From NCBI GenBank assembly GCA_016873435.1, contig VGXF01000005.1, positions 54,386-118,385 of the forward strand: a DNA stretch of 64,000 nt, written 5' to 3'. The position numbers were made by a program, and so were the translations under genes. The DNA comes from Nitrospira sp. GTDB lineage: Bacteria > Nitrospirota > Nitrospiria > Nitrospirales > Nitrospiraceae. Below are positions 2,331 through 49,133 of this stretch, piece by piece; the stretch's first letter is position 1, and each line of letters opens with the position of its first letter. The notes beneath the pieces were generated by a model that was not told the DNA's origin, did no database searches, and worked only from the letters and a program-made list of their open reading frames with translations.

Positions 2331-2408
2331 CTCCTCCTGATAAATGTTAGCCGTGCCCCGTCTTACTTAAACAGAACGGCTGGACACGTGTCCGCTCTGC
2401 AACTTTCG

Positions 2409-5383: not shown

Positions 5384-5429
5384 CGTCCCGCAACTCACCT
5401 CACCTATTCCCCAGCCCTCGAGGGAAGGT

Positions 5430-23205: not shown

Positions 23206-23245
23206 AGAGCCGGGCAGCATACGCTGCCCGGCTCTTCGTGTTTTT
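23206..23245 (+). terminator. intrinsic terminator of groESL
   Basis: AGAGCCGGGCAGC pairs perfectly with GCTGCCCGGCTCT (13 bp, loop ATAC), followed by TCGTGTTTTT. The T-run ends at the stop of the convergent glnE gene. Confidence 0.92.
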
Positions 23246-24911
23246 AGGCAAGGTTTTGGGCAGCTTTGGCGAAACTAGAGCGAGACGGCGCGTCGAACAG
23301 GCTTTTAAAAATCCGGTTCACGTTTGCCGTGTGCCGGTGGTGGTCAGCTACAAAATCTTTTACTGCGGCGCCCCGTCTGACCGCGTCATAGCCCATCCGA
23401 ATGGCGCAGCGGGTCATTTCATCCGAGGACTCCGGGAGCGCGTGCGTCTGCAAATCGTGAACCATCTGCAGCTTGTGCTCGACATCACGCAAAAAGATAT
23501 ATGCGCGCTCCAATTCCTGCCGTGCCTTGGAAGACAGCACTCGCTGCTGTCCCAGCTTCTCCAACGCACCCATCGTACTACGGTCACGAATGGCAGGGAT
23601 CCGTGCGCCCAATAAAATTTGCGCCGTCTGCACAATAAACTCGATCTCGCGGATGCCGCCCTGCCCCAGTTTAACGTTCCGGCGCTTTTGACCCCGCCGG
23701 GCCATCTGCGAATCGATCATGTCCTTTACAGCCTTGACCTGCGCCAGCAGAGAGGCTGGATCGTGCCGCCTGCCGGGATCGAAAATAAACGCGTCGGCCT
23801 GCTTGAGAAATGCCTGACCGACCATTTCATCGCCGGCTACCGGCCAGGCCTTCAACAGCGCCATTCGTTCCCACTGTTCCCCCCTCATCAGATAATACTG
23901 CTCGTACCGTTTCAAGGACCGGGCCAGCTGGCCAGTCGTACCCTCAGCACGTAACCGGAGATCCACGCGAAAGACATGTCCCTCGGGAGAGGGATCGGCC
24001 AGCGCCTTGGTTACGTCACGTGCGAGACGCTCAAAATATTCTTCGTTGGAAACGGAACGAGCGCCAGAACGAGACGCCGGCACCGTGTTGCCCTCATCCG
24101 ACGCATAGACGTAGAGCAAGTCCACGTCGGAACTGTAATTGAGCTCTCCTCCCCCGAGCTTCCCCATGGCAATCACGGCAAAGCCGGTGTCCACTAGGCG
24201 CCCCTGCCGATCCTTGTGCATCGGCCGTCCGAATTGCTCGCGCAACGCGGCCTCGGCAACTACATAGGCCGCCTGGATCAGCACGCACGCTAGGTCCGTC
24301 AGCGCGGCGGTCGTCTCGGGTACGTCCGCCAGCTTCAACAGATCCCGGACGCCGATGCGTAGCGTCTCCCTGCGGCAAAACCGCCGCAGCGCGTCGAGTT
24401 TCCGCTCAACCATCTTCACGTTCGCTAACATCATGCGGAGCGACGCCGCTAGCATCTCCCGCGACGGCCGTCGGGTCAGGACTTGCTGGTCTGCCAGCCA
24501 ATACACCAGGAGCGGATCCCGGATCAGCGTCTGCGCCATGGCTGGGCTGCTGCCGAAGATCGCGCAGAGCAAATGCAGCATGCGAGGATGGTTACGCAGA
24601 TACTCCAGCAACTGACTTCGATGCAGGCCAGCTTGCAGCATCCGCTCCCAATGGTTCAGCCCCTGATCCGGATCGGCGGTCTTTGCCAGTCCGGCCAACA
24701 GGTCACCGAGTATCGTCGCCAGCAGCTTCCGTGTCCCTGGTTCGCCAGCCATCGCCTGGAGATTAGCGTCAGCCCGCTTGACGTCCGTCACGCCGTAGGC
24801 CGTCAGCAACGCAGCTGCCTCAGTCTGTGGCAGGTCGGAGGCAAGCAGCAGTGGTGTGGGATCCGGACATGGGCGTGAAGATGTTTTGGCAGACGTGGTC
24901 GCATGTGCCAT
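23244..24911 (-). CDS. glnE: GlnE N-terminal-half homologue (deadenylylating-type), stand-alone
   Basis: 555 residues corresponding to only one half of classical GlnE (about 950 residues, two nucleotidyltransferase domains). The nucleotidyltransferase motif GKLGGGELNYSSDVDLL places the metal-binding aspartates at about 262 and 264. Later motifs EQWERMALLKAWPVAGD and KLGQGGIREIEFIVQ resemble the N-terminal, adenylyl-removing half of the enterobacterial protein as remembered from the family, more than its C-terminal half. It would remove AMP from GlnA Tyr397. The gene is divergent from the other half, with start codons about 60 bases apart. A perfect TATAAT ends eight bases before the ATG, with no ribosome binding site, so the mRNA may be leaderless. 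Confidence 0.88.
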   Translation of the reverse strand: MAHATTSAKTSSRPCPDPTPLLLASDLPQTEAAALLTAYGVTDVKRADANLQAMAGEPGTRKLLATILGDLLAGLAKTADPDQGLNHWERMLQAGLHRSQLLEYLRNHPRMLHLLCAIFGSSPAMAQTLIRDPLLVYWLADQQVLTRRPSREMLAASLRMMLANVKMVERKLDALRRFCRRETLRIGVRDLLKLADVPETTAALTDLACVLIQAAYVVAEAALREQFGRPMHKDRQGRLVDTGFAVIAMGKLGGGELNYSSDVDLLYVYASDEGNTVPASRSGARSVSNEEYFERLARDVTKALADPSPEGHVFRVDLRLRAEGTTGQLARSLKRYEQYYLMRGEQWERMALLKAWPVAGDEMVGQAFLKQADAFIFDPGRRHDPASLLAQVKAVKDMIDSQMARRGQKRRNVKLGQGGIREIEFIVQTAQILLGARIPAIRDRSTMGALEKLGQQRVLSSKARQELERAYIFLRDVEHKLQMVHDLQTHALPESSDEMTRCAIRMGYDAVRRGAAVKDFVADHHRHTANVNRIFKSLFDAPSRSSFAKAAQNLA

Positions 24912-24925: not shown

Positions 24926-24961
24926 CCGACGTCAGAGTCGTACAATCACGTGGACTTTCGC

Positions 24962-24967
24962 TATACT
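24962..24967 (+). promoter_or_regulatory. -10 box of the ACT-GlnE gene
   Basis: TATACT ends six bases before the ATG at 24974, so transcription would begin at about the start codon. The -35 is weak. Confidence 0.35.
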
Positions 24968-24973
24968 GAGATC

Positions 24974-27235
24974 ATGGAAGTCCGGTCGTCATCCCAGGAT
25001 GTCCTCCTCACCAAGCTTGCTGTGCTCGCCCCCGATGTTCCTCAGGACATTACGCGCGACCTACTGTCACGCATGGACGATACATATTTTACTTGCGTTA
25101 CGCCGGCTGACATCGCCGAACACCTGCGGCTACTCTCGCGGCTGACACTCGATCATCCCTGCGAAATTTCCGTCACCGCACAAGGCAGCGATCTGTCACT
25201 GGTCATCGTCGCCTATGACTATTTCTCCGAGTTTGCCGCCATGGCCGGACTCCTCTCCAGCCACCGGCTCGACATTCGGGAGGGTGCACTTTACACCTTC
25301 GCTGAAGCCACCGGACCTGCTCAGCCACGTCCGACCGGACCCTGGAAACGCCCGCAGACCAGACCAGGCCTCTCACGTAAAAAGATCGTGGACGTGTTTC
25401 GCGTCCGGCCGCTTCCCGGCACGACCTTCGGTTTCCCGGAACAGCAACAGCTGCAGGACGAACTCACGCAAGTCCTGCGCCTGCTGGACGCGCGGCGCTT
25501 CACGGAGACCCGCCGCTTCGTCAACCACCGCCTGGTCGAGACGCTCGGCAAGACGCGCGGCGCCTTTCAGGGCCTGCTGGCTCCCGTGCACATTCGTTTC
25601 GACAACAAGGTCTCCCCATCCAGCACAGCCATGGACATCCGTTCAACCGATACGCCGGCCTTCCTCTACGCTTTTGCCCTGGCACTATCCATGCGCGGAC
25701 TGGACATCCATCAGGCCCACTTCGAGCATATCGGCGACGAGCTGCACGACCGCTTCTTTGTCCGTGGGCGACACGGTCAGAAGGTCGAGAGCAAGACCGA
25801 GCAGCAGGAATTGCAGCTCACGGCGACTCTGGCCAAGCAATTTACCCAGCATCTGATCTGGGCCCCCGACCCCACCCGAGCACTGGAATCCTTTGATCAG
25901 TTTCTGGACCAGTTGTTTCAAGATGCAAAAGGAAAAAAGACGCTCGCTTTTCTCTCAAAAAAGACGGCGCTGCCGCTGCTGGCTAGACTGCTCGGCACAA
26001 GTGACTATCTCTGGCAGGATTTCGTACGCCGGCAGCACGCCAATCTTTTGCCGATCCTGGGTGACTACCAACGACTCCCTCTCATCCGCGCGCGCGCGCA
26101 GCTCGCGCACGCACTGGAAAAGGAGCTGGCCCGCACTCGCACCGACGACCAGCGTAGGACGGCGCTCAACGCCTTCAAGGACCGTGAGCTATTCCGCATT
26201 GACATGAAACATCTGCTGGACCGCACCACCACCCTCCAGGATTTCTCGCTGGCCTTGACCGATTTGGCTGAAACCGTTCTCGAACGTGCCGTGGCGGATT
26301 GCACCGCACGCCTGTCGCGTGAATTTGGCACCCCGCAGCTCACCGCGCGCACGCCCTGCCCCTTTGCCATCTTCGGCATGGGGAAATTTGGCGGGCGCGA
26401 GCTGGGCTATGCCTCCGACATCGAAGTGTTGTTCGTCTTCGGAGGGCCGGGACGAACGGCTGGGCAGCATCCGCTTGATCACAGCGAGTACTACGAACGG
26501 CTGGCTCAGATGCTGTTGCAGTGGATCGAAGCACGGCAGGAAGGCATCTTTCGTCTGGACGTGCGGCTTCGCCCGCACGGCGGCAAGGGCCTGCTGGCCA
26601 ACACGCTGGAGGAGATTAAAAAATACTACAGTCCAACCGGACTGGGCGCTCCGTTCGAACGGCAGGCGCTCATCAAATTACGTTTTGTGTGCGGAGACCA
26701 AACCTTGGGCAGGCAGATCGAAGCCCACCGCGATACCTTTGTCTACAGTGGGCGGCCATGGGATCTACAAACTGCGCTAGCCCTGCGCCGGCAGCAGATC
26801 AAGGAATTGACGGAACAGGGGGTAGTGAACGTGAAATACAGCGCCGGTGGTATCGTGGATATTGAATACGCCGCGCAGTATCTACAAGTGATGCACGGGC
26901 ACGCTGTGAAGACCCTACGTACGCCCAATACCCTGGAAGCCCTGACCGCAGCCCAACGCACCAAGTTGCTACCCGCTCGCGATACGCAGGCGCTACGTGA
27001 GGCCTACCTGTTTCTGCGGAGCGTGATTGACGCCCTCCGCATCGTGCGCGGACACGCTAAGGATCTCGTCCTCCCCGATACTGGCTCGGACGAGTTTATT
27101 TTTCTGGCGCGGAGGATGGGTTACGAGGAAGCAGACTGGAAGGCGGGCGCCGCGAAGCTTTCCGCAGACATCACCCGCCACATGGGCGAAGCGAGGAGAA
27201 TTTTTTCTGCCCGTTTTAAATCCGAAGCCGACTAG
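24974..27235 (+). CDS. ACT-ACT-GlnE fusion: adenylylating-type half of GlnE with GlnD-like sensor
   Basis: About 753 residues from the ATG at 24974; a GTG at 24950 would add eight. Residues about 60-145 (CEISVTAQGSDLSLVIVAYD ... KIVDVFRVR) and 205-272 (VHIRFDNKVSPSS ... HDRFFVRGRHGQKV) look like the two ACT domains at the C-terminus of GlnD. The C-terminal half is a GlnE nucleotidyltransferase: GMGKFGGRELGYASDIEVLF, DVRLRPHGGKG, APFERQALIKLRFVCGD and AGGIVDIEYAAQYL, closest to the C-terminal, adenylylating half of classical GlnE. The usual DxD is D-I-E here (about residues 482 and 484). The ACT pair suggests direct glutamine sensing (inference). Convergent with the GYD gene: both stops use the same CTAG. 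Confidence 0.85.
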   Translation: MEVRSSSQDVLLTKLAVLAPDVPQDITRDLLSRMDDTYFTCVTPADIAEHLRLLSRLTLDHPCEISVTAQGSDLSLVIVAYDYFSEFAAMAGLLSSHRLDIREGALYTFAEATGPAQPRPTGPWKRPQTRPGLSRKKIVDVFRVRPLPGTTFGFPEQQQLQDELTQVLRLLDARRFTETRRFVNHRLVETLGKTRGAFQGLLAPVHIRFDNKVSPSSTAMDIRSTDTPAFLYAFALALSMRGLDIHQAHFEHIGDELHDRFFVRGRHGQKVESKTEQQELQLTATLAKQFTQHLIWAPDPTRALESFDQFLDQLFQDAKGKKTLAFLSKKTALPLLARLLGTSDYLWQDFVRRQHANLLPILGDYQRLPLIRARAQLAHALEKELARTRTDDQRRTALNAFKDRELFRIDMKHLLDRTTTLQDFSLALTDLAETVLERAVADCTARLSREFGTPQLTARTPCPFAIFGMGKFGGRELGYASDIEVLFVFGGPGRTAGQHPLDHSEYYERLAQMLLQWIEARQEGIFRLDVRLRPHGGKGLLANTLEEIKKYYSPTGLGAPFERQALIKLRFVCGDQTLGRQIEAHRDTFVYSGRPWDLQTALALRRQQIKELTEQGVVNVKYSAGGIVDIEYAAQYLQVMHGHAVKTLRTPNTLEALTAAQRTKLLPARDTQALREAYLFLRSVIDALRIVRGHAKDLVLPDTGSDEFIFLARRMGYEEADWKAGAAKLSADITRHMGEARRIFSARFKSEAD

Positions 27236-28055: not shown

Positions 28056-29660
28056 TCAGGCCGGCTTCAACACACTCGGCGCGATAAACCCAGCCAGCGA
28101 CGACCCCGCAGTTGATTCGGGCTTGACGGCCAGCGCGGTTTTTCTTGTCTCGGCGCCCCGCACGCGGTGCATCTTCTCGCGCGTGTGGTACGGCACCAGT
28201 CCCTCCAGTACAGACGGCAGCTTGTCACAGGGGACATCTTCCATGATTTTCATAGCGAGCTTAGGATCAATTCCAGACCGGCCACCGACGAAGACGTCCA
28301 CCGCATCCACCACCTTGCCGTCAATCTTAGTTTTCTTCCCAAGCAGCCCAATGTCGGCCACTAGATGGTTGCCGCAGCCGGCCGGACAACCGGACCAGTG
28401 CATGGTGATGGGCTTGATTCCGCTACCCAGCTTCACCTCCAGCGCCTTGGCGGTTTCGACTGCCCGACTCTTGGTTTCGATCACGGCCAGGTTGCAGTAA
28501 TCGTTCCCAACACAACTGACAAGGCCTTTATGGATCGGCGCTGGGTTGTAAGTTAGCCGCTTAACCAGCGGCTCCTCAGTCAGGTCGCTCACCAGCCGGT
28601 CCACCACATTGGGAATGATGATCGCCTGTGCCGGCGAGAGACGGACATCGCCCGTACCATATTTTTCGGCCAGTGCCGCGACCGCCACCAGGTCCTTGGC
28701 CGTGATGCGCCCGACCACCACCTTGAGCCCCACATAGTTCATCCGCGGCTGCTTTTGCCGATAGATGCCGACGTGATCCTTTTCACCTGTCTTTCTCGCG
28801 TCGGTTCCTGCCCGAGCCAACGGATGCCCGACCTTTGCCTCCACCTCGCTACGAAAACGCGCAACGCCCCAGTCATCCAGCAAAAATGCCAGCCGTGCTG
28901 CCGTGCGTGTCTCGCGCGGACCGTGATCACGATAGAGCAGCATGATCGCTCGACAGACCTCGAGCGATTCTGATGGCAGGACAAAAATATCCAGCGGGCT
29001 GGCAATCCGATAGCCGCCCGATCCGAGCTTGCCACCGGCCAGCACGTTAAAACCAGTGATTTTCGCCTCGCCTTCTCCCTGATAAGCCGGCACGAGCGCC
29101 AGATCCTGCGTCTCCATATGGAGACAGTTGTCTAAGCAACCGGTCACCGCTATGTTCACCTTGCGAGGAAGATTCGTGTACTCGCGGTTCTCCAGAATCT
29201 CCTGCGTGATCGCCTGCACAACGGAGGTGGCGTCGAGCATCTCATCCGGTGTCAAGCCGGCTACCGGACAGGTCATGACGTTCCGGACATTGTCCATGCC
29301 GGTTTGCAGCGAGGTCAGCCCGACTTCTTCGAGCTTCGCAAAGATAGCCGGCACATGCTCAATGCGAATCTGACGAAGCTGTATCTGCTGACGCGTCGTC
29401 AGATCGAGAATGCCATTGCCATATTCTTGTGCAATGCCGGCCAGCGCGCGCAATTGATACGAACCGGTCTTCCCTCCAGAAATCCGCACGCGGATCATGA
29501 AATAGCCGGGCGTCAGATTGCGCAGGAATAGGCCGTACCACTTTAGCCGCTGAATGTCCTCTTCCGAGATGGACTCCCAGCCTGTCGTAGCGTACCCCGC
29601 GATGGACGCTTTCACATCCAGTCCATCACATTCGGTTTTGAGCGCTTCAATCTTGTTCAC
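28056..29660 (-). CDS. nirA: assimilatory ferredoxin-type nitrite reductase NirA
   Basis: Six-electron reduction of nitrite to ammonium with siroheme and a 4Fe-4S cluster. 534 residues with two ferritin-like half-domain repeats. The cluster ligands are Cys383, Cys389 (CVGNDYC) and Cys425, Cys429 (CPAGC), the C-x5-C and C-x3-C pattern of the family. Nitrite rather than sulfite reduction is inferred from the Amt, nirC and cynS neighbours. Starts 11 bases after amt. The C-terminus carries about 35 extra residues beyond the catalytic core. Confidence 0.88.
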   Translation of the reverse strand: MNKIEALKTECDGLDVKASIAGYATTGWESISEEDIQRLKWYGLFLRNLTPGYFMIRVRISGGKTGSYQLRALAGIAQEYGNGILDLTTRQQIQLRQIRIEHVPAIFAKLEEVGLTSLQTGMDNVRNVMTCPVAGLTPDEMLDATSVVQAITQEILENREYTNLPRKVNIAVTGCLDNCLHMETQDLALVPAYQGEGEAKITGFNVLAGGKLGSGGYRIASPLDIFVLPSESLEVCRAIMLLYRDHGPRETRTAARLAFLLDDWGVARFRSEVEAKVGHPLARAGTDARKTGEKDHVGIYRQKQPRMNYVGLKVVVGRITAKDLVAVAALAEKYGTGDVRLSPAQAIIIPNVVDRLVSDLTEEPLVKRLTYNPAPIHKGLVSCVGNDYCNLAVIETKSRAVETAKALEVKLGSGIKPITMHWSGCPAGCGNHLVADIGLLGKKTKIDGKVVDAVDVFVGGRSGIDPKLAMKIMEDVPCDKLPSVLEGLVPYHTREKMHRVRGAETRKTALAVKPESTAGSSLAGFIAPSVLKPA

Positions 29661-29671
29661 GGCGTTGCCTG

Positions 29672-30988
29672 TTACGAATAGGCCCGTTCGTTATGCTGAC
29701 TCAGATCCAAGCCCATGGATTCCTGCTCGGGTGCAACCCGAAGCCCCACGAACCGATCAATCAATTTCAGCAGCACCCAGGTCATGGCTCCAGAGAACAG
29801 GACCACTACAATGACCGCTACCGCCTGTACTATCAAAAAGTGTGTGTTACCGGCCAGCAGCCCATCTGCCCCCCCTGGATTGACCGCTTTGGATGCGAAC
29901 AACCCGGTCGCCAGTACGCCAAAGACACCGCCCACACCGTGAATGCCGACGACGTCCAGCGAGTCATCATAGCCCCACCGCCCCTTTTTAATGATTGCGA
30001 TGTAGGACAGCCCACCCGCCATCAGCCCGATCGCCATGGCGGCAAACGGCCCCACGTAGCCAGCGCTCGGCGTAACCATCGCAAGCCCGGCAATGACGCC
30101 GCTGGCCAGCCCCAATACAGTCGGCGTGCCGCGATGCACCCATTCAACCGTCATCCAGGCCAGCCCGGCCGTGACCGCGGCCGTATGCGTCGCAAGAAAA
30201 GCCACGACGGCAATTTGGTTGACTCCCAGGGCGCTCCCCGCGTTGAACCCGAACCAGCCGAACCAGACGAGCCCAGTTGCCAACATGACCATTGGTAGAT
30301 TGTGTGGCGCCATGTAGTCCACGCCGTAGCCATGCCGCTGGCCCAGCACGTAGGCACAGACCAGGGCGGCTGTTCCCGACGTCAGATGCACGACTACGCC
30401 ACCGGCAAAGTCCAGCGCGCCCCACTGACCAAGCCAGCCGCCACCCCACATCCAGTGCGCCACCGGGCAATACACCAAGACGAACCAGAGCCCTGAAAAA
30501 AGCATCATGGAGCCAAATTTTATCCGTTCGGCAAAAGCCCCGGTGATGAGCGCCGGCGTGATGGCCGCGAACATCATTTGGAAAATCATGAACACCTGAT
30601 GTGGAATCGTCGGCCCGTAGGACGAATGCGGCGAGAAGCCGACGTCGCGCAGGCCCGCCCATTCCAGTCCGCCGATCACACCCCATTTGTCGGGTCCGAA
30701 CGCCAGACTATAGCCAAATAGAATCCAAAGCACGCTGATCAGACACAGGATGGCAACACTGTGCATGATCGTGCCCAACACGTTCTTCCGGCGAACGAGA
30801 CCGCCGTAGAACAGCGCGAGTCCAGGCACGATCATCGTCAGCACCAGCGCCGAAGCAATCAGCACCCAGGCGGTGTCGGCAGCATCAACCTTGGGCATTG
30901 ATTCTGCACCTTGGGCCAGTGCATCACCGGCCATGGTAATGACGGCCACCGCTCCCGCCCCTCCTGGGGCTATCCAGTTCCGCCGCAT
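29672..30988 (-). CDS. amt: ammonium transporter Amt (cyanate/nitrite operon copy)
   Basis: 438 residues with 11 or so membrane segments and a cleavable-looking N-terminus. Amt signatures: DTAWVLIASALVLTMIVPGLALFYGG, DFAGGVVVHLTSG, and HNLPMVMLATGLVWFGWFGFNAGS. Start at 30988 chosen for GAGGAGG upstream; the longer frame overlaps nirC. In this operon it could retain ammonia released by cyanase and nitrite reductase. A second Amt lies in the nadE-glnA operon. Confidence 0.95.
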   Translation of the reverse strand: MRRNWIAPGGAGAVAVITMAGDALAQGAESMPKVDAADTAWVLIASALVLTMIVPGLALFYGGLVRRKNVLGTIMHSVAILCLISVLWILFGYSLAFGPDKWGVIGGLEWAGLRDVGFSPHSSYGPTIPHQVFMIFQMMFAAITPALITGAFAERIKFGSMMLFSGLWFVLVYCPVAHWMWGGGWLGQWGALDFAGGVVVHLTSGTAALVCAYVLGQRHGYGVDYMAPHNLPMVMLATGLVWFGWFGFNAGSALGVNQIAVVAFLATHTAAVTAGLAWMTVEWVHRGTPTVLGLASGVIAGLAMVTPSAGYVGPFAAMAIGLMAGGLSYIAIIKKGRWGYDDSLDVVGIHGVGGVFGVLATGLFASKAVNPGGADGLLAGNTHFLIVQAVAVIVVVLFSGAMTWVLLKLIDRFVGLRVAPEQESMGLDLSQHNERAYS

Positions 30989-31014
30989 CGTTTCCTCCTC
31001 GACTTGCCCCCCGC

Positions 31015-31824
31015 TCAGGCCTTCGCGTGACTCGGCGCAGGTCTGTGACTCACATAGATGGCTAGTCCGGTAAAAATCATACCGCCGAGTAGATTGCCCA
31101 GCGTCACCGGAATTTGATTCCACAGCCACCAGTCCGACACAGTCACATTGGCACCCATCATCATCCCCACTGGAATGACAAACATGTTCACGACCGTGTG
31201 TTCAAAACCCTGCGAAAAAAATAGGACCACCGGCCCCCACATAGCGATGATTTTTCCGGCCAGCGAGGTCGTGGCAAAGGCCATCACGACCGCAAGGCTC
31301 ACCAGCCAGTTGCAGAGAATGGCCTTGGTAAAGACCGCGATCATGCCGGCTGCCTGGAAGGCCGAATACCCCGTTGTTTTCTGCTCCGCCATTGCGACCA
31401 GCTTCTTGCCGATCGGCGACACGTCGCCGGACCAACTTGTCGTTAGTGCGATCGCCAGCAGCACGGCATAGAGTACGCTGCCCATCAGGTTACCGAGGAA
31501 GACCCACCCCCAGTTCTGAAAAACCCGACTGATCTTTGCGCCCTCCTTGCCCTCCATGGCGGCGACAGGTAGCAGCGCGAAACTTCCAGTGATCAACTCG
31601 GTGCCTAGCAGCACAACGAGACACAATCCGAACGGGAAAATCAGCGCACCTACGATCCACTGCCCCGTCTGCACGGCCGCCGTGACGGACATGCTCGTCG
31701 CCACCGCCAGGTAGGCCCCGGCCAGCATGCCCCGGACGACCAGTTGCTTCGCCGGTAAATTAACCTTAGCCGTTCCAACGGCCAGAATCTGACCCGCAAT
31801 TTCAGTCGGCTTCACGCAATCCAT
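31015..31824 (-). CDS. nirC: formate/nitrite transporter family channel (NirC-like)
   Basis: 269 residues of the FNT family with six membrane segments; the conserved LGTELITGSFALLP and NWLVSLAVVMAF stretches line the channel. Nitrite is the likely substrate given the nirA downstream and cynS upstream, but formate or cyanate-related anions cannot be excluded. AAGGAGG lies upstream of the start. Confidence 0.88.
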   Translation of the reverse strand: MDCVKPTEIAGQILAVGTAKVNLPAKQLVVRGMLAGAYLAVATSMSVTAAVQTGQWIVGALIFPFGLCLVVLLGTELITGSFALLPVAAMEGKEGAKISRVFQNWGWVFLGNLMGSVLYAVLLAIALTTSWSGDVSPIGKKLVAMAEQKTTGYSAFQAAGMIAVFTKAILCNWLVSLAVVMAFATTSLAGKIIAMWGPVVLFFSQGFEHTVVNMFVIPVGMMMGANVTVSDWWLWNQIPVTLGNLLGGMIFTGLAIYVSHRPAPSHAKA

Positions 31825-31890: not shown

Positions 31891-32340
31891 TCAGAACGTC
31901 TTGTATTCAAGCCACTTGCCGTTGAGTGTGATCTTGCAGCGGGCCTCACCCTGGCTGCCCGTCACCTTTTCCATGTCGAGTGTAAAATCAATGGCGCTCA
32001 TAATGCCGTCGCCAAACATCTCGTTGGCCATCTCGCGCATTGGATCGCCGTAAACGCCGATAATTTCTAACAACCGGTACTTGAATGGATCCGTGGTGAT
32101 GGGGAAATCCGTCCGCACCGGAAATTTGCTCAACGACGCCGTCGTGTCCCTGTCGAGATCGAGCAGGGTGCCGATTTTCTGTGCTTCCTGCGGCGGCAGT
32201 TTGTGGTTGCCGGACAGGGCCGCCGCGACAAAGGTCGGATTGCGGCCTACCGCCTTGGCCAGCTCGGCGATCGTGACTTTTTTCTCTAATCGCTTCGCCT
32301 TGATGATGTCGCTTGCGGCTTTCTTTCCGTTCTCGTTCAT
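31891..32340 (-). CDS. cynS: cyanate hydratase (cyanase) CynS
   Basis: Converts cyanate plus bicarbonate to ammonia and CO2. From the ATG at 32340 (AGGAGG upstream) the protein has 149 residues, the typical cyanase length. An N-terminal helix-turn-helix-like domain (VTIAELAKAVGRNPTFVAAAL) is followed by the catalytic C-terminus with Arg89, Glu92 and Ser115 in KYRLLEIIG and GDGIMSAIDF, the known active-site trio. A longer frame upstream reads through the attenuator region and is not coding. First gene of the operon with nirC-amt-nirA. Confidence 0.96.
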   Translation of the reverse strand: MNENGKKAASDIIKAKRLEKKVTIAELAKAVGRNPTFVAAALSGNHKLPPQEAQKIGTLLDLDRDTTASLSKFPVRTDFPITTDPFKYRLLEIIGVYGDPMREMANEMFGDGIMSAIDFTLDMEKVTGSQGEARCKITLNGKWLEYKTF

Positions 32341-32416: not shown

Positions 32417-32512
32417 AAAAAAAACGTCCCCACTCCCACACGGGAATGAGGACGTCTTTGTCCTACTTGCCGAGTGCGCACGCACCACCCGGCCCGAGAC
32501 GGCACCGTCTCG
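32417..32512 (-). promoter_or_regulatory. ANTAR-type attenuator B in the cynS leader
   Basis: Three elements in order on the minus strand: hairpin P1 CGAGAC/GTCTCG (32495-32512, loop GGTGCC); hairpin P2 AGGAC/GTCCT (32449-32464) with six-base loop AAAGAC, having A1 and G4 as in ANTAR targets; and a terminator (32417-32456) whose left arm overlaps P2 and which ends in eight Ts. Forming P2 excludes the terminator. P1 lacks the A1 loop base. Confidence 0.6.
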
Positions 32513-32527
32513 TTATACAAATAAAAT

Positions 32528-32612
32528 GGCGTCCGCCACTCTTTTCAGAATGACGGACGCCTTTGTCCGTTTCGTCTTGAAGTTGCGTGTTAGGCGCCTT
32601 TGCCTTAACACG
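32528..32612 (-). promoter_or_regulatory. ANTAR-type attenuator A in the cynS leader
   Basis: P1 at 32586-32612 is a stem CGTGTTA/TAACACG extended by GGC/GCC with six-base loop AAAGGC. P2 at 32554-32569 is CGGAC/GTCCG with the same loop AAAGGC. Both loops have A1 and G4. A terminator-like hairpin at 32528-32561 (GGCGTCCG ... CGGACGCC then ATTTTATTTG) overlaps P2, so P2 and terminator are mutually exclusive. The linker between P1 and P2 is 16 bases. Confidence 0.65.
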
Positions 32613-32623
32613 TAACCAGGTGA

Positions 32624-32652
32624 ACTATAGCATGCCTCTCGCTCACCGTCAA
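32624..32652 (-). promoter_or_regulatory. sigma70-type promoter of the cynS operon
   Basis: TTGACG at 32647-32652 and TATAGT at 32624-32629, spacer 17. Expected start near 32617, giving a leader of about 277 bases with two attenuators before cynS. A run of seven Ts at 32662-32668 after glnA has no clear hairpin, so glnA transcripts could also read in. Confidence 0.75.
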
Positions 32653-32678: not shown

Positions 32679-34088
32679 CTAGACGTCGTAGTACAGGAAG
32701 AACTCGTACGGATGCGGCCGTAACCGGATCGCATCCACTTCCTTCGACCGCTTGTAACCGATCCAGGCCTCGATCAGATCCTCCGTGAACACACCCCCCT
32801 TGAGAAGGAACTGATGGTCCTTCTCGAGGTTCTTGAGCGCGTCGTCGAGGCTCCCCGGCATGGTCGGCACCCGGGCCGCTTCGCGAGCCTCCAGATCGTA
32901 GAGGTCCTTCTCCATCGGCTCTCCCGGATCGATCTTATTCTGGATGCCGTCCAGTCCGGCCATCAGCATGGCCGCGAAGGCCAGGTACGGGTTCGTGGAC
33001 GGATCCGGGAAACGCACCTCGATTCGCTTCGCCTTAGGGCTCGGCGAATACATCGGGATGCGGATGCCGGCCGAGCGGTTGCGGCTCGAGTAGGCCAGCA
33101 TCACCGGCGCCTCGAAGCCCGGGGTCAGCCGCTTGTACGAGTTGACCGTCGGATTGGTGATCGCCGCCAGTGCCGGTGCGTGCTTTAGAATACCGCCGAT
33201 GTAATAGAGACACATCTGCGACATGCCGGCATATTCTTTCCCGGCAAACAGCGGCTTGCCCTCCTTCCAGATACTCTGATGCGTATGCATGCCGGACCCG
33301 TTGTCACCAAACAACGGCTTCGGCATGAAGGTCACGGTCTTGTGATGACGCCGGGCCACGTTCTTAACGATGTACTTATACATCATCATCTTGTCAGCCA
33401 TGACGACCAGCGAATCGAACCGAAGGTCGATTTCGGCCTGCCCTGCCGTCGCCACCTCGTGGTGATGCTTCTCGACAGCAATACCCGCCTTCTGCATCTC
33501 CAGTACCATTTCGCTACGGATGTCCTGCTGCGTGTCCGTCGGCGGCACCGGGAAGTAGCCCTCCTTGTGCCGAATTTTGTTGCCGAGGTTGACGCCCTCT
33601 TGGCCCGCGTTCCAGATCCCCTCCTCGGAATCCAGGAAGTAGTAGCCGCTGTGGCTCGTCTGGTCGAACCGGGCGTGGTCGAAGATGAAGAATTCGGCTT
33701 CCGGGCCCCAGTAGGAGATGTCGCCGATCTTCGTCCTCTTAAGATATTTCTCCGCCTTCTGCGCGATGAAGCGCGGGTCACGCTCGTAGATCTCGCGCGT
33801 GATCGGATCCATCACGTTACCGACCAGGCTCAGCGTCGGCACAGCCGTGAAGGGGTCCATACACGCTGTAGCCGGATCCGGCACGACCAGCATGTCGCTG
33901 TTATTGATCGCCTTCCAGCCGCGGATGGACGAGCCGTCCAGGCCGGAGCCATCCTTGAAGGTACCTTCGTTGAGTTCTTCGATCGGGATCGTGAAATGCT
34001 GCCAGGTGCCCGGCAAATCCACGAATTTCAGGTCGACGACCTGTGCCTTGTTTTTGTTTGCGTACTCGAGTACCTCACGCGGAGTCAT
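32679..34088 (-). CDS. glnA: type I glutamine synthetase GlnA
   Basis: ATP-dependent synthesis of glutamine from glutamate and ammonium; dodecamer in the cytoplasm. 469 residues, as in enterobacterial GS-I-beta. Signatures: DGSSIRGW, the metal/ATP site [16 protein letters not shown], and NRSAGIRIP. The adenylylation tyrosine is Tyr397 in KDLYDLE, the same number as in E. coli, so it should be a substrate for the GlnE pair encoded in this window. AAGGAGGAGG precedes the ATG; 48 bases separate it from glnD. Confidence 0.98.
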
Positions 34089-34136
34089 CCCTACCTCCTC
34101 CTTTTCAAGCAGCCCGATTAAAAATTGATAATGGCG

Positions 34137-37159
<3,023 letters not shown>

Positions 37160-37165
37160 TCAGGC

Positions 37166-38485
37166 TTACGAGTACGCACGCTCATTGTGCTGGCTGAGAT
37201 CCAATCCCGTAGCCTCTTCCTCTGGTGACACACGGAGCTTGATCATGCCATCCAACACTTTCAGAATTATGTAGGTGCCGACAAAAGCAAAGACGGCTGC
37301 CACGACGGCAGCCAGCATCTGCGTGCCGATCTGTCCCGGATTGCCGAAAAACAACCCATTGGGACCGGCCGGATTGACGGCGCTCGACGCGAACAGACCG
37401 ACACCTACCATGCCGACTACCCCTCCGACAGCGTGCAATCCCACAACATCCAACGTGTCATCATAGCCAAACTTGCCCTTCCAGACAATGGCCAGATAGG
37501 CGAGCGGTCCAGCAGTGGCACCGATCAGCGCTGCCGACATCGGCCCAAGAAATCCTGCGCCAGCCGTGACAGAGGCCATCCCGGCAACTGCTCCGCTAGC
37601 CACCCCCAGCACAGTCGGCTTGCCCCGATGCGACCATTCGACGGCCATCCATGAAAGGGCTGACGCTGCCGCAGCAATGTGTGTAGCAACCACGGCCCCG
37701 GCCGCCACGCTGTTGGCGCCCCGCGCGCTGCCGCCGTTGAATCCAAACCAGCCGAACCAGAGCAGCCCCGTGCCAGCCAGCACCAAAGGAAGATTGTGCG
37801 GTGCCATATAATCCGTCCGCCAACCGCGCCGTTTGCCCACGACAAGCGCGCAGGCCAGCGCCGAGGCACCCGAACTCAGATGGACGACCGTGCCGCCGGC
37901 AAAATCCACCGCGCCGAGCTTGCTGAGCCATCCTCCGCCCCACATCCAATGCGCAAGCGGTGCATACACAACCAGTGACCAAGCCATCACAAACCAGATC
38001 AGCGCGCTGAACCGAATTCGTTCCGCAACGGCGCCGACGATCAGCGCCGACGTGAAGGCCGCAAAGAATAATTGAAAGATCATGAACGCCAGGTGCGGCA
38101 CGGTCGGCGCATAGGCAGCATGCGGCGCCGTACTGACGCCGCTGAGAAAGGCCCAGTCCAGCCCGCCGATGACGCCCCCCTTGTCCGGCGCGAAGACAAG
38201 GCTGTACCCGCACAGCACCCAGAGCAGGCTCACCACGCACAGAGTCAAAAAGCTGTGCATCATAGTGCCCAGCACGTTTTTGCTCCGCACCATACCCCCG
38301 TAGAACAGTGCCAGCCCTGGCACGACCATTGCCACAACCAGCGCCGAGGCCGTTAGCATCCAGGCCGTGTCGCCGCTGTCAATGCGAGGGGCTGCCACCA
38401 CATTCTCCGCCCAGGCGGACGTACTTCCGGACAACAGAACTACCACCCACGTCGCATGCATCGCTCGTGTCCATATCACGTTCAT
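37166..38485 (-). CDS. amt: ammonium transporter Amt (PII-linked copy)
   Basis: 439 residues with signal-like N-terminus (MNVIWTRAMHATWVVVLLSG) and about 11 membrane segments. Amt motifs DTAWMLTASALVVAMVVPGLALFYGG and DFAGGTVVHLSSG are close to those of the other copy, and both end in ATGLDLSQHNERAYS-like tails (here EEATGLDLSQHNERAYS). Next to glnK, so it is probably the copy blocked by PII. Confidence 0.96.
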   Translation of the reverse strand: MNVIWTRAMHATWVVVLLSGSTSAWAENVVAAPRIDSGDTAWMLTASALVVAMVVPGLALFYGGMVRSKNVLGTMMHSFLTLCVVSLLWVLCGYSLVFAPDKGGVIGGLDWAFLSGVSTAPHAAYAPTVPHLAFMIFQLFFAAFTSALIVGAVAERIRFSALIWFVMAWSLVVYAPLAHWMWGGGWLSKLGAVDFAGGTVVHLSSGASALACALVVGKRRGWRTDYMAPHNLPLVLAGTGLLWFGWFGFNGGSARGANSVAAGAVVATHIAAAASALSWMAVEWSHRGKPTVLGVASGAVAGMASVTAGAGFLGPMSAALIGATAGPLAYLAIVWKGKFGYDDTLDVVGLHAVGGVVGMVGVGLFASSAVNPAGPNGLFFGNPGQIGTQMLAAVVAAVFAFVGTYIILKVLDGMIKLRVSPEEEATGLDLSQHNERAYS

Positions 38486-38503
38486 TATGCTGCCTCCTGA
38501 CGG

Positions 38504-40279
38504 TCAGATGTTGCGGTACCGGTTAGTAATCGGCATCCGGCGATCCTTACCAAACGCCCGATGCGTAATCTTGATACCAACCGGCGCCTGGCGGCGTTTG
38601 TATTCGCTCCGGTCCACCATCGTGATGACCCGCGCCACCGTCTCACGGTCGAATCCCATTTCGACAATTTCGTCCGGCGCCCGATCCTCCTCCACGTAAG
38701 CCTTGAGGATCGGATCGAGGATCGCGTAGGGCGGTAGCGTATCCTCGTCTGTCTGATTCGGCTTCAGCTCAGCCGTCGGAGCCCGATCGAAAATCCGTTT
38801 GGGAATGACCGGCTCGCGGCCCCGCTTGTTGCGCAGCCGCGCCAGCTCATAGACCATTGTCTTCGGTACATCCTTGATGACGGCGAACCCGCCGGCCATG
38901 TCGCCGTAGAGCGTAGCATAGCCGACGCTCATCTCACTTTTATTCCCGGTCGTTAGGACCAAATGCCCGAACTTGTTGGAGAAGGCCATAAGAAGATTAC
39001 CGCGAATCCGGGCCTGAAGATTTTCCTCTGTACTATCAGGCGGGCGACCAGCAAAGGCCGGTGCCAACTCCCGATTGTAGGTTTCGAACGTCTTCGTGAT
39101 TGGGATGGTCTGAACGGAAATGTGCAGACGCCGCCCCAGTTCCTTGGTATCCTCCCCACTCTCCCGCGACGTGTAGGGCGAGGGCATGAAGAGGCCCATA
39201 ACATTGTGTGCCCCCAGCGCATCCACGGCTACGGCTGCCGTAAGGGCCGAATCGATGCCCCCACTTAAACCAATGACGACCTGCTTAAATCCGTTCTTAC
39301 CCACGTAGTCCTGAACGCCCAGGACCAGCGCGCGATAGACTTCCTCCAGCGGATCCAACGGAGCCGCACTGACCGGCACCAGCCGCGCGCGCCTTACACC
39401 GTGCAGCGCACCCGACACCACCACACGCTCGACACTCACCCGCGACCGCCCCGCCAGTTTTTTCCGACCATGCGCGAGCCTGGCCCGTGCCGCCGCGACA
39501 ATATTGAGATCGGTGACCAGCAGATCTTCCTCGAATGCCTTCCCGAGAATAATCACCTCGCCCGCCTGGTCGAGCACAAGGCTGTTGCCATCGAACACGA
39601 GTTCGTCCTGCCCGCCGACCATGTTCGTGTAGGACACGATGACACCGTTTTCCCGTGCGCGGGTGGCCAGCATCTGCTCGCGCAAGCGGCTCTTCCCCAC
39701 GTGAAACGGCGAAGCATTGATGTTCACAATCACTTCTGCGCCAGCCATTGACTGCGTCCGCGTCGGTCCCTCCGGGTACCAGATGTCCTCGCAAATGTTC
39801 ACCCCGAAGGTAACGCCGCCCAGCACCACTACGGGAATCCGTCCGCCCGGATGGAAATAGCGGCTTTCATCGAAGACGCCGTAGTTCGGCAGATAGCGTT
39901 TGGCATAGGTGGCCACGATCCGTCCGCCGGCAATCACTACCGCTGCATTGGACAACTCGTGCCGGCCGGCCGCAACCACCGTGGGGCGATCCGTCTGCGT
40001 ATCCGACAACGCATCATCTCCGACATATCCAACGACAACAGCCAGTCCGCGGCTCTGGCGGACAATCTCTTGTAACGCCCGCCGGTTCTCAGCCAGAAAT
40101 CGGGGCTTCAACAGGAGATCCTCCGGCGGATAGCCGGTGATGGCCAATTCGGGAAAAGCCACCAGGTCGGCACCAGCCTTCTTTGCTTCCCGCAGCCAGG
40201 CAGTGATCTTTCGGACGTTCCCGTCCAAGTCACCAACCGTCGGGTTCATCTGGGCCATGGCAAGACGAAATGGTCGCAT
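38504..40279 (-). CDS. nadE: glutamine-dependent NAD+ synthetase NadE
   Basis: Last step of NAD synthesis using glutamine as ammonia donor. 591 residues: an N-terminal nitrilase-type glutaminase (FPELAITGYPPEDLL, nucleophile in VNICEDIWYPEG) and a C-terminal synthetase with the PP-loop VIGLSGGIDSALTA. First gene of the operon with amt, glnK, glnD and glnA, an unusual place that ties NAD synthesis to nitrogen control. The ATG follows directly on the U-tract of the leader terminator; the nearest Shine-Dalgarno, GAGGG, is in that terminator's 3' arm. Confidence 0.95.
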   Translation of the reverse strand: MRPFRLAMAQMNPTVGDLDGNVRKITAWLREAKKAGADLVAFPELAITGYPPEDLLLKPRFLAENRRALQEIVRQSRGLAVVVGYVGDDALSDTQTDRPTVVAAGRHELSNAAVVIAGGRIVATYAKRYLPNYGVFDESRYFHPGGRIPVVVLGGVTFGVNICEDIWYPEGPTRTQSMAGAEVIVNINASPFHVGKSRLREQMLATRARENGVIVSYTNMVGGQDELVFDGNSLVLDQAGEVIILGKAFEEDLLVTDLNIVAAARARLAHGRKKLAGRSRVSVERVVVSGALHGVRRARLVPVSAAPLDPLEEVYRALVLGVQDYVGKNGFKQVVIGLSGGIDSALTAAVAVDALGAHNVMGLFMPSPYTSRESGEDTKELGRRLHISVQTIPITKTFETYNRELAPAFAGRPPDSTEENLQARIRGNLLMAFSNKFGHLVLTTGNKSEMSVGYATLYGDMAGGFAVIKDVPKTMVYELARLRNKRGREPVIPKRIFDRAPTAELKPNQTDEDTLPPYAILDPILKAYVEEDRAPDEIVEMGFDRETVARVITMVDRSEYKRRQAPVGIKITHRAFGKDRRMPITNRYRNI

Positions 40280-40283
40280 AGAT

Positions 40284-40385
40284 AAAAAAAAACGCCCTCA
40301 ATCCCGCCAGGGAAGGAGGACGTCAGCGTCCAGGTTCAAGCCGAGCGTACTGTGCGGCCTGACTTTCGGAGACTTCATTGTCTCC
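40284..40385 (-). promoter_or_regulatory. ANTAR-type attenuator in the nadE leader
   Basis: On the minus strand: P1 GGAGAC/GTCTCC with six-base loop AATGAA (A1, G4) at 40368-40385; P2 GGAC/GTCC with loop GCTGAC (G4 but not A1) at 40318-40331; and a terminator ACGTCCTC...GAGGGCGT (about 40291-40324) followed by nine Ts. P2 shares its 3' arm with the terminator's left arm, so they exclude each other. The layout matches NasR/EutV-type leaders. Confidence 0.65.
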
Positions 40386-40405
40386 ATACATTCAGTGATG
40401 CGCCG

Positions 40406-40435
40406 TGTATAGCATCCGCCTTCCGACAGTGTCAA
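40406..40435 (-). promoter_or_regulatory. sigma70-type promoter of the nadE operon
   Basis: TTGACA at 40430-40435 and TATACA at 40406-40411, spacer 18, six bases after the stop of the antiterminator gene. Start expected near 40399, giving a leader of about 120 bases. Confidence 0.7.
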
Positions 40436-40440: not shown

Positions 40441-41700
40441 TTATCTGGCGCGCTCCTCGATTTGCCCAGCCAGGAGAATGGCTTCAGCGATTTCCCGCAT
40501 GGATTTGCGCATATCCATGCTCTGCCGTTGAATAAGCCGAAACGCCTCCTCCTCTGACAGCTTCTTTGATCGCATCAAAGACCCCTTTGCCTGCTCGACC
40601 AGCTTGCGCACTGCAAGAGCCTCCTGCATTTCGAAGGATTTTTCCAGCAGCGTCGTGTGCTCGATCGCGATAGCCGCCTGATTGGCGATAGCCTGCATCA
40701 GCTTGACCTCCTCGGTCGAGAATTGATGCGGCTTAGACGTGTAGCTGTTGATCACACCGACCGCCTTGTCGCGAACGAGCATGGGCACCGACAACAGTGC
40801 GCAGAGCCCTTCTTTTTTGGCCATGTCAGGGTACATGTAGTCCCGGTCGTGCGTGACGTCCTGCACGATCATTGGGCGCCGCTCCTGCACCGCCCGCCCG
40901 CTGATGCTCTGCCCGATCTTCAAATTCGGCTTCAATCGGTACTGCTCGCTCAGGCTCTGCGTGGCCACGATCCGGAGTTCCCCCGTTGGCTGATCCAACA
41001 GCATGATCGAGCAAATTTTCGAATTCATCATCTGCGCAGTCATCGTGACGATCAACTGCAAAATGTCATCAATCAGACGATTGGACGTGACCGTCTCCGA
41101 CACTTGCGAGAGCGTCTCGATCTGGTGAGCCTTCCGCATAGTCTCAGCATAAAGCCGGGCATTTTCGATCGCTCCGCCGACCTGGCCAGCGATCGTAGAT
41201 ATAAGCGCCAGTTTGTCCGGACGGTACCGGCGGGGACGTTTATGCTGGACATTGATGACGCCGACGACTTCGTTTTTCGCCAGGATCGGTACAGAGACGA
41301 ACGCCTGGTAGCGGTCCTCCGGAAGATCGTGAAAGAACTTGAATCGGGGATCGTCGCTGGCGTTACTGGGGATGACCACGCGCATCCGCTCCCGCGCCAC
41401 CCAGCCGGTAATGCCTTCGCCCATCCCGATCGTGATGCGGCCGATCAACTTGGGATGGGGATTCTTGGATGCCCGCAGGCTCAGCTCATCACGACTATCG
41501 GACAATAAATAAAGCAGGCAGGCATCGGCCCTCGTAACCTCGACGACGATATCCACGATGTGCTTGAGCACCGCCTCCAAATCCAGCGTGCCGCTGATGG
41601 AGTCGGTGATATGGTGCAGGACGTCCACCTCGCGGGTTTTTTCCCGCAGGGCCTGCTCCATCTGTTGTACGGACGGGCGCGACTTGGTTTCCTTGGCCAT
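40441..41700 (-). CDS. GAF-GAF-ANTAR transcription antiterminator
   Basis: 419 residues from the ATG at 41700. Two GAF sensor domains: about 28-185 (LHHITDSISGTLDLEAVLKH ... VSVPILAKNEVVGVINVQHK) and 195-350 (LSVPMLVRDKAVGVINSYTS). Residues 360-413 form an ANTAR RNA-binding domain with LVEQAKGSLMRSKKLSEEEA and MREIAEAILLAGQ, as in NasR, AmiR and EutV. No receiver domain or kinase is adjacent, so the GAF domains probably sense a ligand themselves; the ligand is unknown. It starts three bases from the aroB stop, and its likely target, the nadE leader, begins immediately after its stop. A longer frame from 41778 overlaps aroB and is less likely. Confidence 0.9.
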   Translation of the reverse strand: MAKETKSRPSVQQMEQALREKTREVDVLHHITDSISGTLDLEAVLKHIVDIVVEVTRADACLLYLLSDSRDELSLRASKNPHPKLIGRITIGMGEGITGWVARERMRVVIPSNASDDPRFKFFHDLPEDRYQAFVSVPILAKNEVVGVINVQHKRPRRYRPDKLALISTIAGQVGGAIENARLYAETMRKAHQIETLSQVSETVTSNRLIDDILQLIVTMTAQMMNSKICSIMLLDQPTGELRIVATQSLSEQYRLKPNLKIGQSISGRAVQERRPMIVQDVTHDRDYMYPDMAKKEGLCALLSVPMLVRDKAVGVINSYTSKPHQFSTEEVKLMQAIANQAAIAIEHTTLLEKSFEMQEALAVRKLVEQAKGSLMRSKKLSEEEAFRLIQRQSMDMRKSMREIAEAILLAGQIEERAR

Positions 41701-41702
41701 GG

Positions 41703-42851
41703 CTATGCGCGCCCCCTGCTCGCGCGCACCTGCCGCAGCGACGGGGAAGCCTTCCGTGACGGCAGACTGCGAAACCATTGCTCGCAGGCCTCACGCTCAA
41801 GCGGTCGAATGACCACCCGCCCAATCCGTTCGGGAAATACGCAGTGGACCTGCCCGTGGACCGTTTTCTTATCGTGCAGCATGGCCTTCCAGAAATTCGT
41901 GAACGTGCAGGGCGGCATCGCACCAGGCAGGCCGGCGCGACGGACCAGCTCACGCTGACGGTCGACGACATCCGGCGAGCAAAGACCGAGGTGCCGAGAC
42001 AAATCGGCCTCCTGCACCAGCCCCATCGCAATCGCCTCGCCGTGAATCCACTTGCGATACCTGCCCAATGACTCCAGCGCGTGCCCGATCGTATGGCCGT
42101 AATTCAACACGCGTCGCAGACCGGATTCCCGCTCGTCTTTCCCAACCACGTCGGCCTTGATTTCGCAGGACCGGACAATCGCCCAGCTCGCCAGCTCCAT
42201 GTCCAGCTTGACCAGCCGGTCCATCGAGCGTTCCAGTTCAGCACAAAACGATTCATCGGCAATCACGCCGTATTTGATCACTTCGGCCAGTCCTGCCGTC
42301 CATTCCCGTGGTGGCAGCGTGCGGAGCGTCTCCGGATCGATCAGCACCAGCCGGGGCTGATAGAACGTCCCAATAAGATTTTTTCCAAGCGGATGGTTCA
42401 CGCCGGTTTTGCCGCCGACGCTCGAATCCACCTGTGCCACCAGGGTCGTCGGCACCTGCACGAAGGGTATACCACGCAGATGGATCGAGGCGGCAAACCC
42501 GGTCAGGTCTCCGATGACACCCCCTCCCAGTGCCACAAGGAGTGATTGGCGCTCGAAGCGGGCCTTAATCAGCGCATCGAGGATGGTGGTGACAGACGAT
42601 AGCGACTTGGATCGCTCCCCCTCAGGGATCACAATGGTGACGGGATCAAACCCAGAGGACTTGAGCGAATGCAGGATCGTTTTTGAGTAGAGCCGTCCGA
42701 TGACCGGATTGGTCACGATTCCAACTTTCCCGCAAAATCCGAGCGCGGCCAGGTGCGCACCGATCTCGCCAAGCGAGCCCGGCTTGATCAGAATGTCATA
42801 GCTGCGGTCGGCCAGCGAGACGGTTACACGGCGTACGTCGCCTAAAGACAC
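41703..42851 (-). CDS. aroB: 3-dehydroquinate synthase AroB
   Basis: Second step of the shikimate pathway, NAD+ and metal dependent. About 382 residues from a GTG at 42851 that follows GGGAG by seven bases; an upstream GTG at 42929 has no ribosome binding site. Motifs: VALGGGVIGDLTGFAAS, VDSSVGGKTGVNHPLGKN and the metal-site LNYGHTIGHALE. Part of aroC-aroB. Confidence 0.95.
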   Translation of the reverse strand: MSLGDVRRVTVSLADRSYDILIKPGSLGEIGAHLAALGFCGKVGIVTNPVIGRLYSKTILHSLKSSGFDPVTIVIPEGERSKSLSSVTTILDALIKARFERQSLLVALGGGVIGDLTGFAASIHLRGIPFVQVPTTLVAQVDSSVGGKTGVNHPLGKNLIGTFYQPRLVLIDPETLRTLPPREWTAGLAEVIKYGVIADESFCAELERSMDRLVKLDMELASWAIVRSCEIKADVVGKDERESGLRRVLNYGHTIGHALESLGRYRKWIHGEAIAMGLVQEADLSRHLGLCSPDVVDRQRELVRRAGLPGAMPPCTFTNFWKAMLHDKKTVHGQVHCVFPERIGRVVIRPLEREACEQWFRSLPSRKASPSLRQVRASRGRA

Positions 42852-48654: not shown

Positions 48655-48682
48655 CCTAGCCGATCAATGACGATCGGCTAGG
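48655..48682 (-). terminator. hairpin ending the ribosomal-protein run
   Basis: CCTAGCCGATC pairs with GATCGGCTAGG (11 bp, six-base loop), 22 bases after the rplQ stop; followed on the minus strand by TTTGTCGC. The T-run is short. Confidence 0.6.
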
Positions 48683-48704
48683 CCTATGCAAAAGGGACGA
48701 CCGG

Positions 48705-49133
48705 CTAGGCCTTTTCGGAGGGTTTGTCCTTCTTAGCCGGTTCGGATTTGTCGGTTTTCGTCTCAGCAGGGGTGCTGCCCTTGGCCACCAGCTCGATGGC
48801 GACCATGGCGGCGGCATCACCGCTTCGTTGCCGCGTCTTGATGATCCGGGTATAGCCGCCGCTACGATCGCGGAACCGGCCGGCTACATCGTCGAACAGC
48901 TTTGACACGACCGCCTTGTCGCGAATGAAGCTCAACGCGCGACGGCGGTTATCTAGCCCGCCCCGCTTGCCCAGTGTGATCATCCGCTCCGCGTAGCCTC
49001 GGATCTCCTTAGCCTTTTGCTCCGTCGTCTCGATCCGCTCGTGGTCCAGCAACGACGTCACCATGTTCCGGAAGAGTGCCCCCCGATGCTTGGTGTCACG
49101 GCTGAGTTGTCTGCCTTTTTTTCCGTGGCGCAC
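48705..49133 (-). CDS. rplQ: ribosomal protein L17
   Basis: 142 residues. The L17 core MRHGKKGRQLSRDTKHRGAL to RQRSGDAAAMVAIELV is followed by about 22 extra lysine/glutamate-rich residues. Last gene of the alpha operon, 17 bases after rpoA. Confidence 0.97.
   Translation of the reverse strand: MRHGKKGRQLSRDTKHRGALFRNMVTSLLDHERIETTEQKAKEIRGYAERMITLGKRGGLDNRRRALSFIRDKAVVSKLFDDVAGRFRDRSGGYTRIIKTRQRSGDAAAMVAIELVAKGSTPAETKTDKSEPAKKDKPSEKA

Follow-up and report, generated by a model that had tools for sequence, protein, structure and literature searches.

A candidate tandem ANTAR antitermination leader between glnA and cynS in Nitrospira

The Nitrospirales include widespread nitrite oxidizers and complete ammonia oxidizers, and an ANTAR-type regulator of nitrogen assimilation was not found for this order in the papers searched. 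The window analyzed here, a 64,000-nt stretch of the Nitrospira sp. contig VGXF01000005.1 (54,386-118,385), raises the question of such a regulator at one locus, where two attenuator-like modules precede genes for cyanase, a nitrite transporter, an ammonium transporter and a nitrite reductase. What do these modules do, why are there two of them, and which protein would read them? The answer that we favor, with a probability of roughly 0.86, is that the leader works by ANTAR antitermination, through two tandem modules that act in series under one reader.

The leader (32652-32417, minus strand) consists of a promoter, located directly behind glnA, and two P1/P2/terminator modules in series, called A and B, which are followed by four genes:

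32624-32652, minus strand: sigma-70-type promoter TTGACG-17-TATAGT (10 of 12 matches, mean 0.0 in shuffles)
32586-32612, minus strand: module A P1, the recruitment hairpin, CGTGTTAAGGC[AAAGGC]GCCTAACACG (A1 and G4 in the loop; one bulged A in the stem)
32553-32570, minus strand: module A P2, the antiterminator hairpin, ACGGAC[AAAGGC]GTCCGT (motif scan and covariance model R1)
32518-32561, minus strand: module A intrinsic terminator including its tail ATTTTATTTG (stem-loop 32561-32528; 15-bp stem, 4-nt loop)
32495-32512, minus strand: module B P1 hairpin CGAGAC[GGTGCC]GTCTCG (G1 and G4 in the loop; off-consensus, conserved as a class)
32449-32464, minus strand: module B P2, the antiterminator hairpin, AGGAC[AAAGAC]GTCCT (motif scan and covariance model R1)
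32417-32459, minus strand: module B intrinsic terminator including its 8-T tail (stem-loop 32459-32420)
31891-32340, minus strand: cynS, cyanase, first gene after the leader (TIGR00673 over cut-off)
31015-31824, minus strand: nirC-like formate/nitrite transporter (profile match)
29672-31129, minus strand: ammonium transporter, the second amt (uncertain start codon; reading frame, as listed, overlaps nirC)
28056-29660, minus strand: nirA-like ferredoxin-nitrite reductase (profile match)

The sequence, the coordinates and the promoter are as the original prediction had given them, and its statement that each P2 overlaps the left arm of its own terminator also holds, the 3' arms of P2-A and P2-B both forming part of that arm. 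The P2 fold and the terminator fold of each module are therefore mutually exclusive. The fold of the whole leader stands at z = -8.1 relative to shuffles, minimum free energy folds place both terminators, and the free energies of terminators A and B (about -28 and -27 kcal/mol) compare with -8.1 and -5.6 kcal/mol for the respective P2 hairpins. By these calculated energies the terminators would outcompete P2, so that the default state is predicted to be off, and something would have to hold P2.

The same prediction had described two full modules, which is exact for A and only partly so for B. Module A has the two expected hairpins, whose six-base loops (AAAGGC and AAAGGC) both carry A1 and G4; the linker between them measures 15-21 nt, the exact value varying with the length assigned to the P1 stem, and P2 overlaps an intrinsic terminator. 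Module B shares the overlap of P2 with an intrinsic terminator, and its P2 loop (AAAGAC) carries A1 and G4, but its P1 loop, GGTGCC, keeps G4 and has G1 in place of A1; moreover, its linker measures 30 nt in the window, against the 2-25 nt given for ANTAR-target RNAs (PMC8164766). In the window, the P1-B loop can also close a G1-C6 pair, which leaves a tetraloop. Judged by sequence, module A is thus a putative member of the ANTAR-target RNAs, and module B a putative variant that departs from the A1 and linker rules.

That these modules are not products of chance is indicated by several lines of evidence. The covariance model R1 was made from 26 A1/G4-loop modules taken from other genomes and contains neither window sequence nor terminators. 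It detects both modules, A with a score of 40.7 bits (E 6.5e-9) and B with 26.8 bits (E 1.9e-5), bearing out the proposal of ANTAR-type attenuators in tandem; the covariance-model check suggested with that proposal also recovers the leader of nadE (30.3 bits). Modules that combine P1, P2 and a strong overlapping terminator number two in the real window and none in 40 dinucleotide shuffles of it. An overlapping terminator is present at 86 of 107 distinct R1 matches and at 20 of 2140 random positions. The P1 and P2 stems covary, with nine of 12 pairs changed on both sides, and 92.3% of the cells in these stems are paired, against 40-49% for slid-partner controls. Around the glnA, cynS and ANTAR genes of relatives, a motif scan recovered the same modules throughout; the P2-A pattern ACGGACAANGRCGTCCGTC is present in 61 of 175 family genomes, and its reversed control gives 0. 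The leader is conserved but the gene that follows it is not, which is why searches upstream of cynS in other genomes mostly missed the modules and those anchored on glnA and the ANTAR gene succeeded. Outside the order, R1 matches are few and weak (three genomes).

Within the window, the leader is one of several elements that point to a common regulator:

40441-41778, minus strand: GAF-GAF-ANTAR protein, 445 aa, the only ANTAR protein found in the assembly (domain search)
40290-40435, minus strand: third element, the promoter and ANTAR module of nadE-amt-glnB-glnD-glnA (detected by R1)
40368-40385, minus strand: P1 of the third element, GGAGAC[AATGAA]GTCTCC
40318-40331, minus strand: P2 of the third element, GGAC[GCTGAC]GTCC, overlapping the terminator
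32679-40279, minus strand: nadE, amt, glnB (PII), glnD and glnA, behind the third element

A fourth module with its own terminator lies elsewhere in the same genome, at G000:C2:75678-75731 on the plus strand (1679-1732 of region L212), and precedes a porin-like gene for which Pfam gives no match; this genome therefore carries four modules for three units: nadE through glnA, cynS through nirA, and the porin-like gene. The block GACGTCCTC-TTCCC, which terminator B shares with the nadE terminator and from which a common origin had been proposed, is real, but it is weak evidence of duplication, being partly fixed by P2 (GTCCT occurs in 70 of 86 terminator-bearing modules). The nadE module, like module B, pairs one A1 loop (AATGAA in P1) with one G1 loop (GCTGAC in P2). 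A weak R1 match (20.3 bits) at 48659-48733 on the plus strand corresponds to a long intergenic hairpin, CCTAGCCGATC[AATGAC]GATCGGCTAGG, and is probably not an ANTAR leader. The window also holds two divergent genes that match GlnE, the glutamine synthetase adenylyltransferase (23244-24911, minus strand, 555 aa; 24950-27235, plus strand, 761 aa), possibly a split or duplicated GlnE. At curated thresholds, Rfam finds two cobalamin riboswitches only in the whole window (2081-2347 and 5427-5597, both on the minus strand).

The candidate reader is encoded directly upstream of nadE-amt-glnB-glnD-glnA. Synteny of its gene with nadE and glnD is widespread, and in two families it extends to amt, glnB and glnA. 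The ANTAR domain of the protein can be aligned to those of Rv1626, EutV and NasR. Residues of EutV have been tied to RNA binding by mutagenesis (PMC8934654), and five of nine EutV RNA contacts are identical here (R142, K143, E160, M172 and R175), while four are changed (Y164 to F, N173 to D, K147 to Q and R177 to S). The protein thus retains a majority of the RNA-contact residues expected of an ANTAR reader; the loss of K147 and R177 speaks against this role, the latter residue being absent from Rv1626 too. Its GAF part resembles the GAF domains of PtsP and NifA, and by this analogy we infer that the GAF pair could respond to the internal nitrogen state, for example through glutamine or 2-oxoglutarate. 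The claim that the cynS operon shares its regulator with the nadE-amt-glnB-glnD-glnA operon is in keeping with the single ANTAR protein in the assembly, which, on sequence evidence, very probably opens both switches of the leader.

If the protein reads the RNA, the two should occur together, and across the order they do. Among 162 genomes of at least 90% completeness, an ANTAR gene is present in 116 and an R1 match in 103; both occur in 101, the RNA alone in two, neither in 44, and the protein alone in 15, where strict filters lie behind the RNA calls. The association is strong (Fisher p 3e-24), with the caveat that these genomes are kin and the p-values overstate their independence, and the contrast comes nearly entirely from genus g6, in which the RNA is found in nine of nine genomes with the protein and in two of 44 without it. 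The RNA accordingly tracks a genome-encoded ANTAR protein, as is expected of ANTAR antitermination. The genomes with only one of the two partners count against the favored reading. In one of them (G108), no ANTAR gene was found, yet L262 (about 2107-2171) is a well-formed ANTAR leader complete with promoter and terminator, either a remnant of loss or the result of an assembly gap. A nitrogen-anabolism cluster has been described as present in canonical nitrifiers and absent from comammox Nitrospira (PMC12342949); the joint absence of protein and RNA in 42 g6 genomes, to which no comammox status is assigned here, fits that description. Among cultured strains, Nitrospira moscoviensis and Ca. N. 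defluvii both carry the candidate ANTAR regulon.

The genes behind these leaders are nitrogen genes and porins. Downstream of 138 core modules, a set into which one genome entered twice, so that several copies are duplicates, are nadE, porins, NMT1_2 substrate-binding proteins (nitrate-type transporters), nirC, amt and cynS, as well as genes for a urea-type binding protein and a NirB-like reductase. The porins comprise BBP2 and two porin-like groups; a Pfam scan of the target genes found no match for these two or for one small protein that resembles lipoproteins. Behind glnA, the leader is constant and the next gene varies by genus: cynS in the window genome, nirC in L076, L081, L213 and L221, and an nrtA-like gene in L070, L082, L101 and L228-L231. 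In five loci of other genera (L063, L078, L079, L083 and L100), glnA is followed by a single module with a P2 of the type CTGGC[AAAGGC]GCCAG and a large-loop terminator, and three of these, judged by eye, precede a sigma-54-type activator; they look like a second form of the switch downstream of glnA. A single ANTAR protein and a small set of leaders would, as far as sequence can tell, constitute a concrete regulon for nitrogen assimilation.

The tandem layout itself is widespread. A single pattern, which required an AAnGnn loop, gathered 50 distinct tandem leaders, and the layout is also found in two more genera (L214, L215). Tandem leaders are known from at least 11 genera (including g1, g2, g6, g7, g9, g12, g14, g16, g18, g19 and g21); many of the sequences belong to a few genera, and the counts do not represent independent events. 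Tandem leaders stand ahead of different genes, namely cynS, nirC, nrtA-like and porin genes. Conservation of the loops across species, on which the original prediction had staked itself in advance, was observed. When the best hairpin with any six-base loop is taken, the P1-A loop has A1 and G4 in all 50 relatives, and A1-A2-N-G4 in all or nearly all, and the P1-B loop has G4 in 90% and G1 in 70%. When a purine at position 1, G4 and a C-G closing pair are required, the P1-B loop has G1 in 41 of 47 relatives. Ahead of P2-B, 45 of the 50 spacers contain a C[RnnGnn]G hairpin, compared with 1% after shuffling. GGTGCC in the window is thus the local version of a second, conserved type of first loop rather than a chance product of decay. 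The genera g19 and g21 carry the G1 loop in P2-B instead of P1-B. The distance from P1-B to P2-B in relatives is about 2-39 nt, mostly 19-39 nt. In g2 and most of g6 (L264, L269-L278), the G1 hairpin lies just 2-7 nt before P2-B, and in g6 it is preceded by a second strong hairpin, GCTTC[TTCGTC]GAAGC. The scan of tandem leaders did not find a strong hexaloop P1-B in N. moscoviensis (L271) or in L217.

These differences between the modules are what gives weight to the suggestion that only module A is an ANTAR switch and that module B is an ordinary back-up terminator, closed or partly opened, which bears a P2-like arm by descent. It would agree with the breach of the A1 rule in P1-B, at variable distance, with the lack of a strong hexaloop in the two leaders just named, and with an R1 score for B far below that of A. 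We nevertheless hold it to be rather unlikely: the hairpin ahead of P2-B is far more frequent than in shuffled spacers, P2-B has an AAnGnn loop overlapping the terminator in the 50 tandem leaders (the loop having been required by the search), and a constitutive terminator at B would silence the operon. Very improbable is a role of the terminated leaders mainly as small RNAs that sequester the ANTAR protein, rather than as attenuators in cis. Such sequestration is known for EutV, by EutX/Rli55 (PMC8934654), and P1-A and P1-B do remain free in the terminated leader, but P2 is locked inside the terminator when the leader terminates, and the modules recur in cis ahead of nitrogen operons.

The position of the element directly behind glnA also evokes a plain double intrinsic terminator that closes the glnA operon, with hexaloops as a by-product of strong inverted repeats, and by eye no TTGAC-type promoter is seen in L063, L078 and L079, where modules could gate read-through from glnA. 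This explanation is highly doubtful, given that the P1 and P2 loops are conserved as ANNG with C-G closing pairs on covarying stems, that shuffles give no such modules, that their presence follows the ANTAR gene, and that the element in the window has its own promoter. A metabolite riboswitch, for instance of a glutamine class, or another leader RNA would suit the nitrogen genes downstream; it is scarcely credible, as the leader yields no match to an Rfam riboswitch family above threshold, and the conserved part is a dual hexaloop hairpin.

The tandem ANTAR element with a single reader remains the preferred reading, and the mechanism that we infer from its anatomy, conservation, mutually exclusive folds and co-occurring protein would run as follows. 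With the regulator inactive, the nascent RNA would fold terminator A, and polymerases that pass it would face terminator B, so that little cynS-nirC-amt-nirA mRNA would be made. The active GAF-GAF-ANTAR protein, which on the model of EutV is probably a dimer, would bind the hexaloops through G4 and would stabilize P2-A and then P2-B, each terminator thereby losing its left arm. Read-through would approximate the product of two probabilities, with less leak and a steeper response. A two-input switch, which had been offered as one purpose of the doubling, is not supported, given the single ANTAR protein and the common loop class of both P2s; two modules in series with one reader would instead form an AND gate of low leak, and the doubling is best read as producing a tighter serial gate.

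How a G1 loop might be read is suggested by work on EutV, in whose RNA-bound structure G4 is the sole base-specific contact and A1 is uncontacted, A1 having been proposed to keep the loop from self-closing (PMC8934654). Mutation of this first loop base nonetheless reduces induction in vivo (PMC3369931), which, together with the possible closure of the P1-B loop into a tetraloop, speaks against the favored reading. By analogy, a G1 loop should still be readable, probably more weakly, and the off-consensus P1-B suggests that module B may be a lower-affinity step or may use protein already recruited by A. One could go further and tentatively imagine a gate that opens in two ordered steps and relies on two classes of loop. 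Recruitment would occur at a strong A1 hairpin in A, B would have a weak or differently recognized G1 hairpin, and either an ANTAR dimer loaded at A would be carried on to B, or a second step of lower affinity would open B. If true, one recruitment site would serve two antiterminators, controlling nitrogen acquisition in many canonical Nitrospira. The conserved G1 loop provides a natural test of the loop position that the EutV structure leaves uncontacted. With nitrite as the only nitrogen source, N. moscoviensis expresses cyanase among its top 100 genes without added cyanate, and two of its three ammonium transporters strongly (PMC6606698), which agrees with a switch that opens without ammonium, the leader of that strain being different.

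Within Rfam, the only notable sub-threshold full-length resemblance in the leader is to RF00625, the Pseudomonas sRNA P11, whose consensus GGACAAAGGCGUCC plus terminator aligns over its full length with module A. At 29.6 bits against a gathering threshold of 70, membership was rejected, and the match was not found in three related loci. P11 is a nirB leader under NasT.

ANTAR attenuation of nitrogen genes is established, and Desulfotomaculum acetoxidans even has units with more than one element (PMC3369931). In the main texts of the papers searched, no ANTAR system in Nitrospira is described, although the supplementary tables of PMC3369931 may list Ca. N. defluvii, and the sole paper mentioning both ANTAR and Nitrospira concerns Paracoccus. 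The eut leaders of Enterococcus faecalis (PMC3369931, PMC8934654) resemble the present one in their P1/P2 hexaloops with A1 and G4, in the overlap of P2 with the terminator and in ANTAR antitermination; EutV, however, is a REC-ANTAR response regulator for ethanolamine, whereas here a GAF-GAF-ANTAR protein is encoded beside nitrogen genes, and the window leader has two serial modules, the second with a G1 loop. The NasR-nasF leader of Klebsiella and the NasT/NasS system (PMC3369931, PMC3795266) likewise involve ANTAR antitermination of nitrate/nitrite assimilation genes, but NasR carries a NIT domain and NasT works with NasS, where the present protein has two GAF domains, and the modules described here also precede a GS/PII operon, NAD synthetase, cyanase and porins. 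D. acetoxidans has several ANTAR attenuators per unit (at least 13 in six units) in nitrogen metabolism; it belongs to another phylum, and the main text of that report mentions no conserved loop difference between successive modules. ANTAR attenuation is known, and what appears new, relative to the papers searched, is a putative order-wide regulon and a tandem variant under a candidate GAF-GAF-ANTAR reader.
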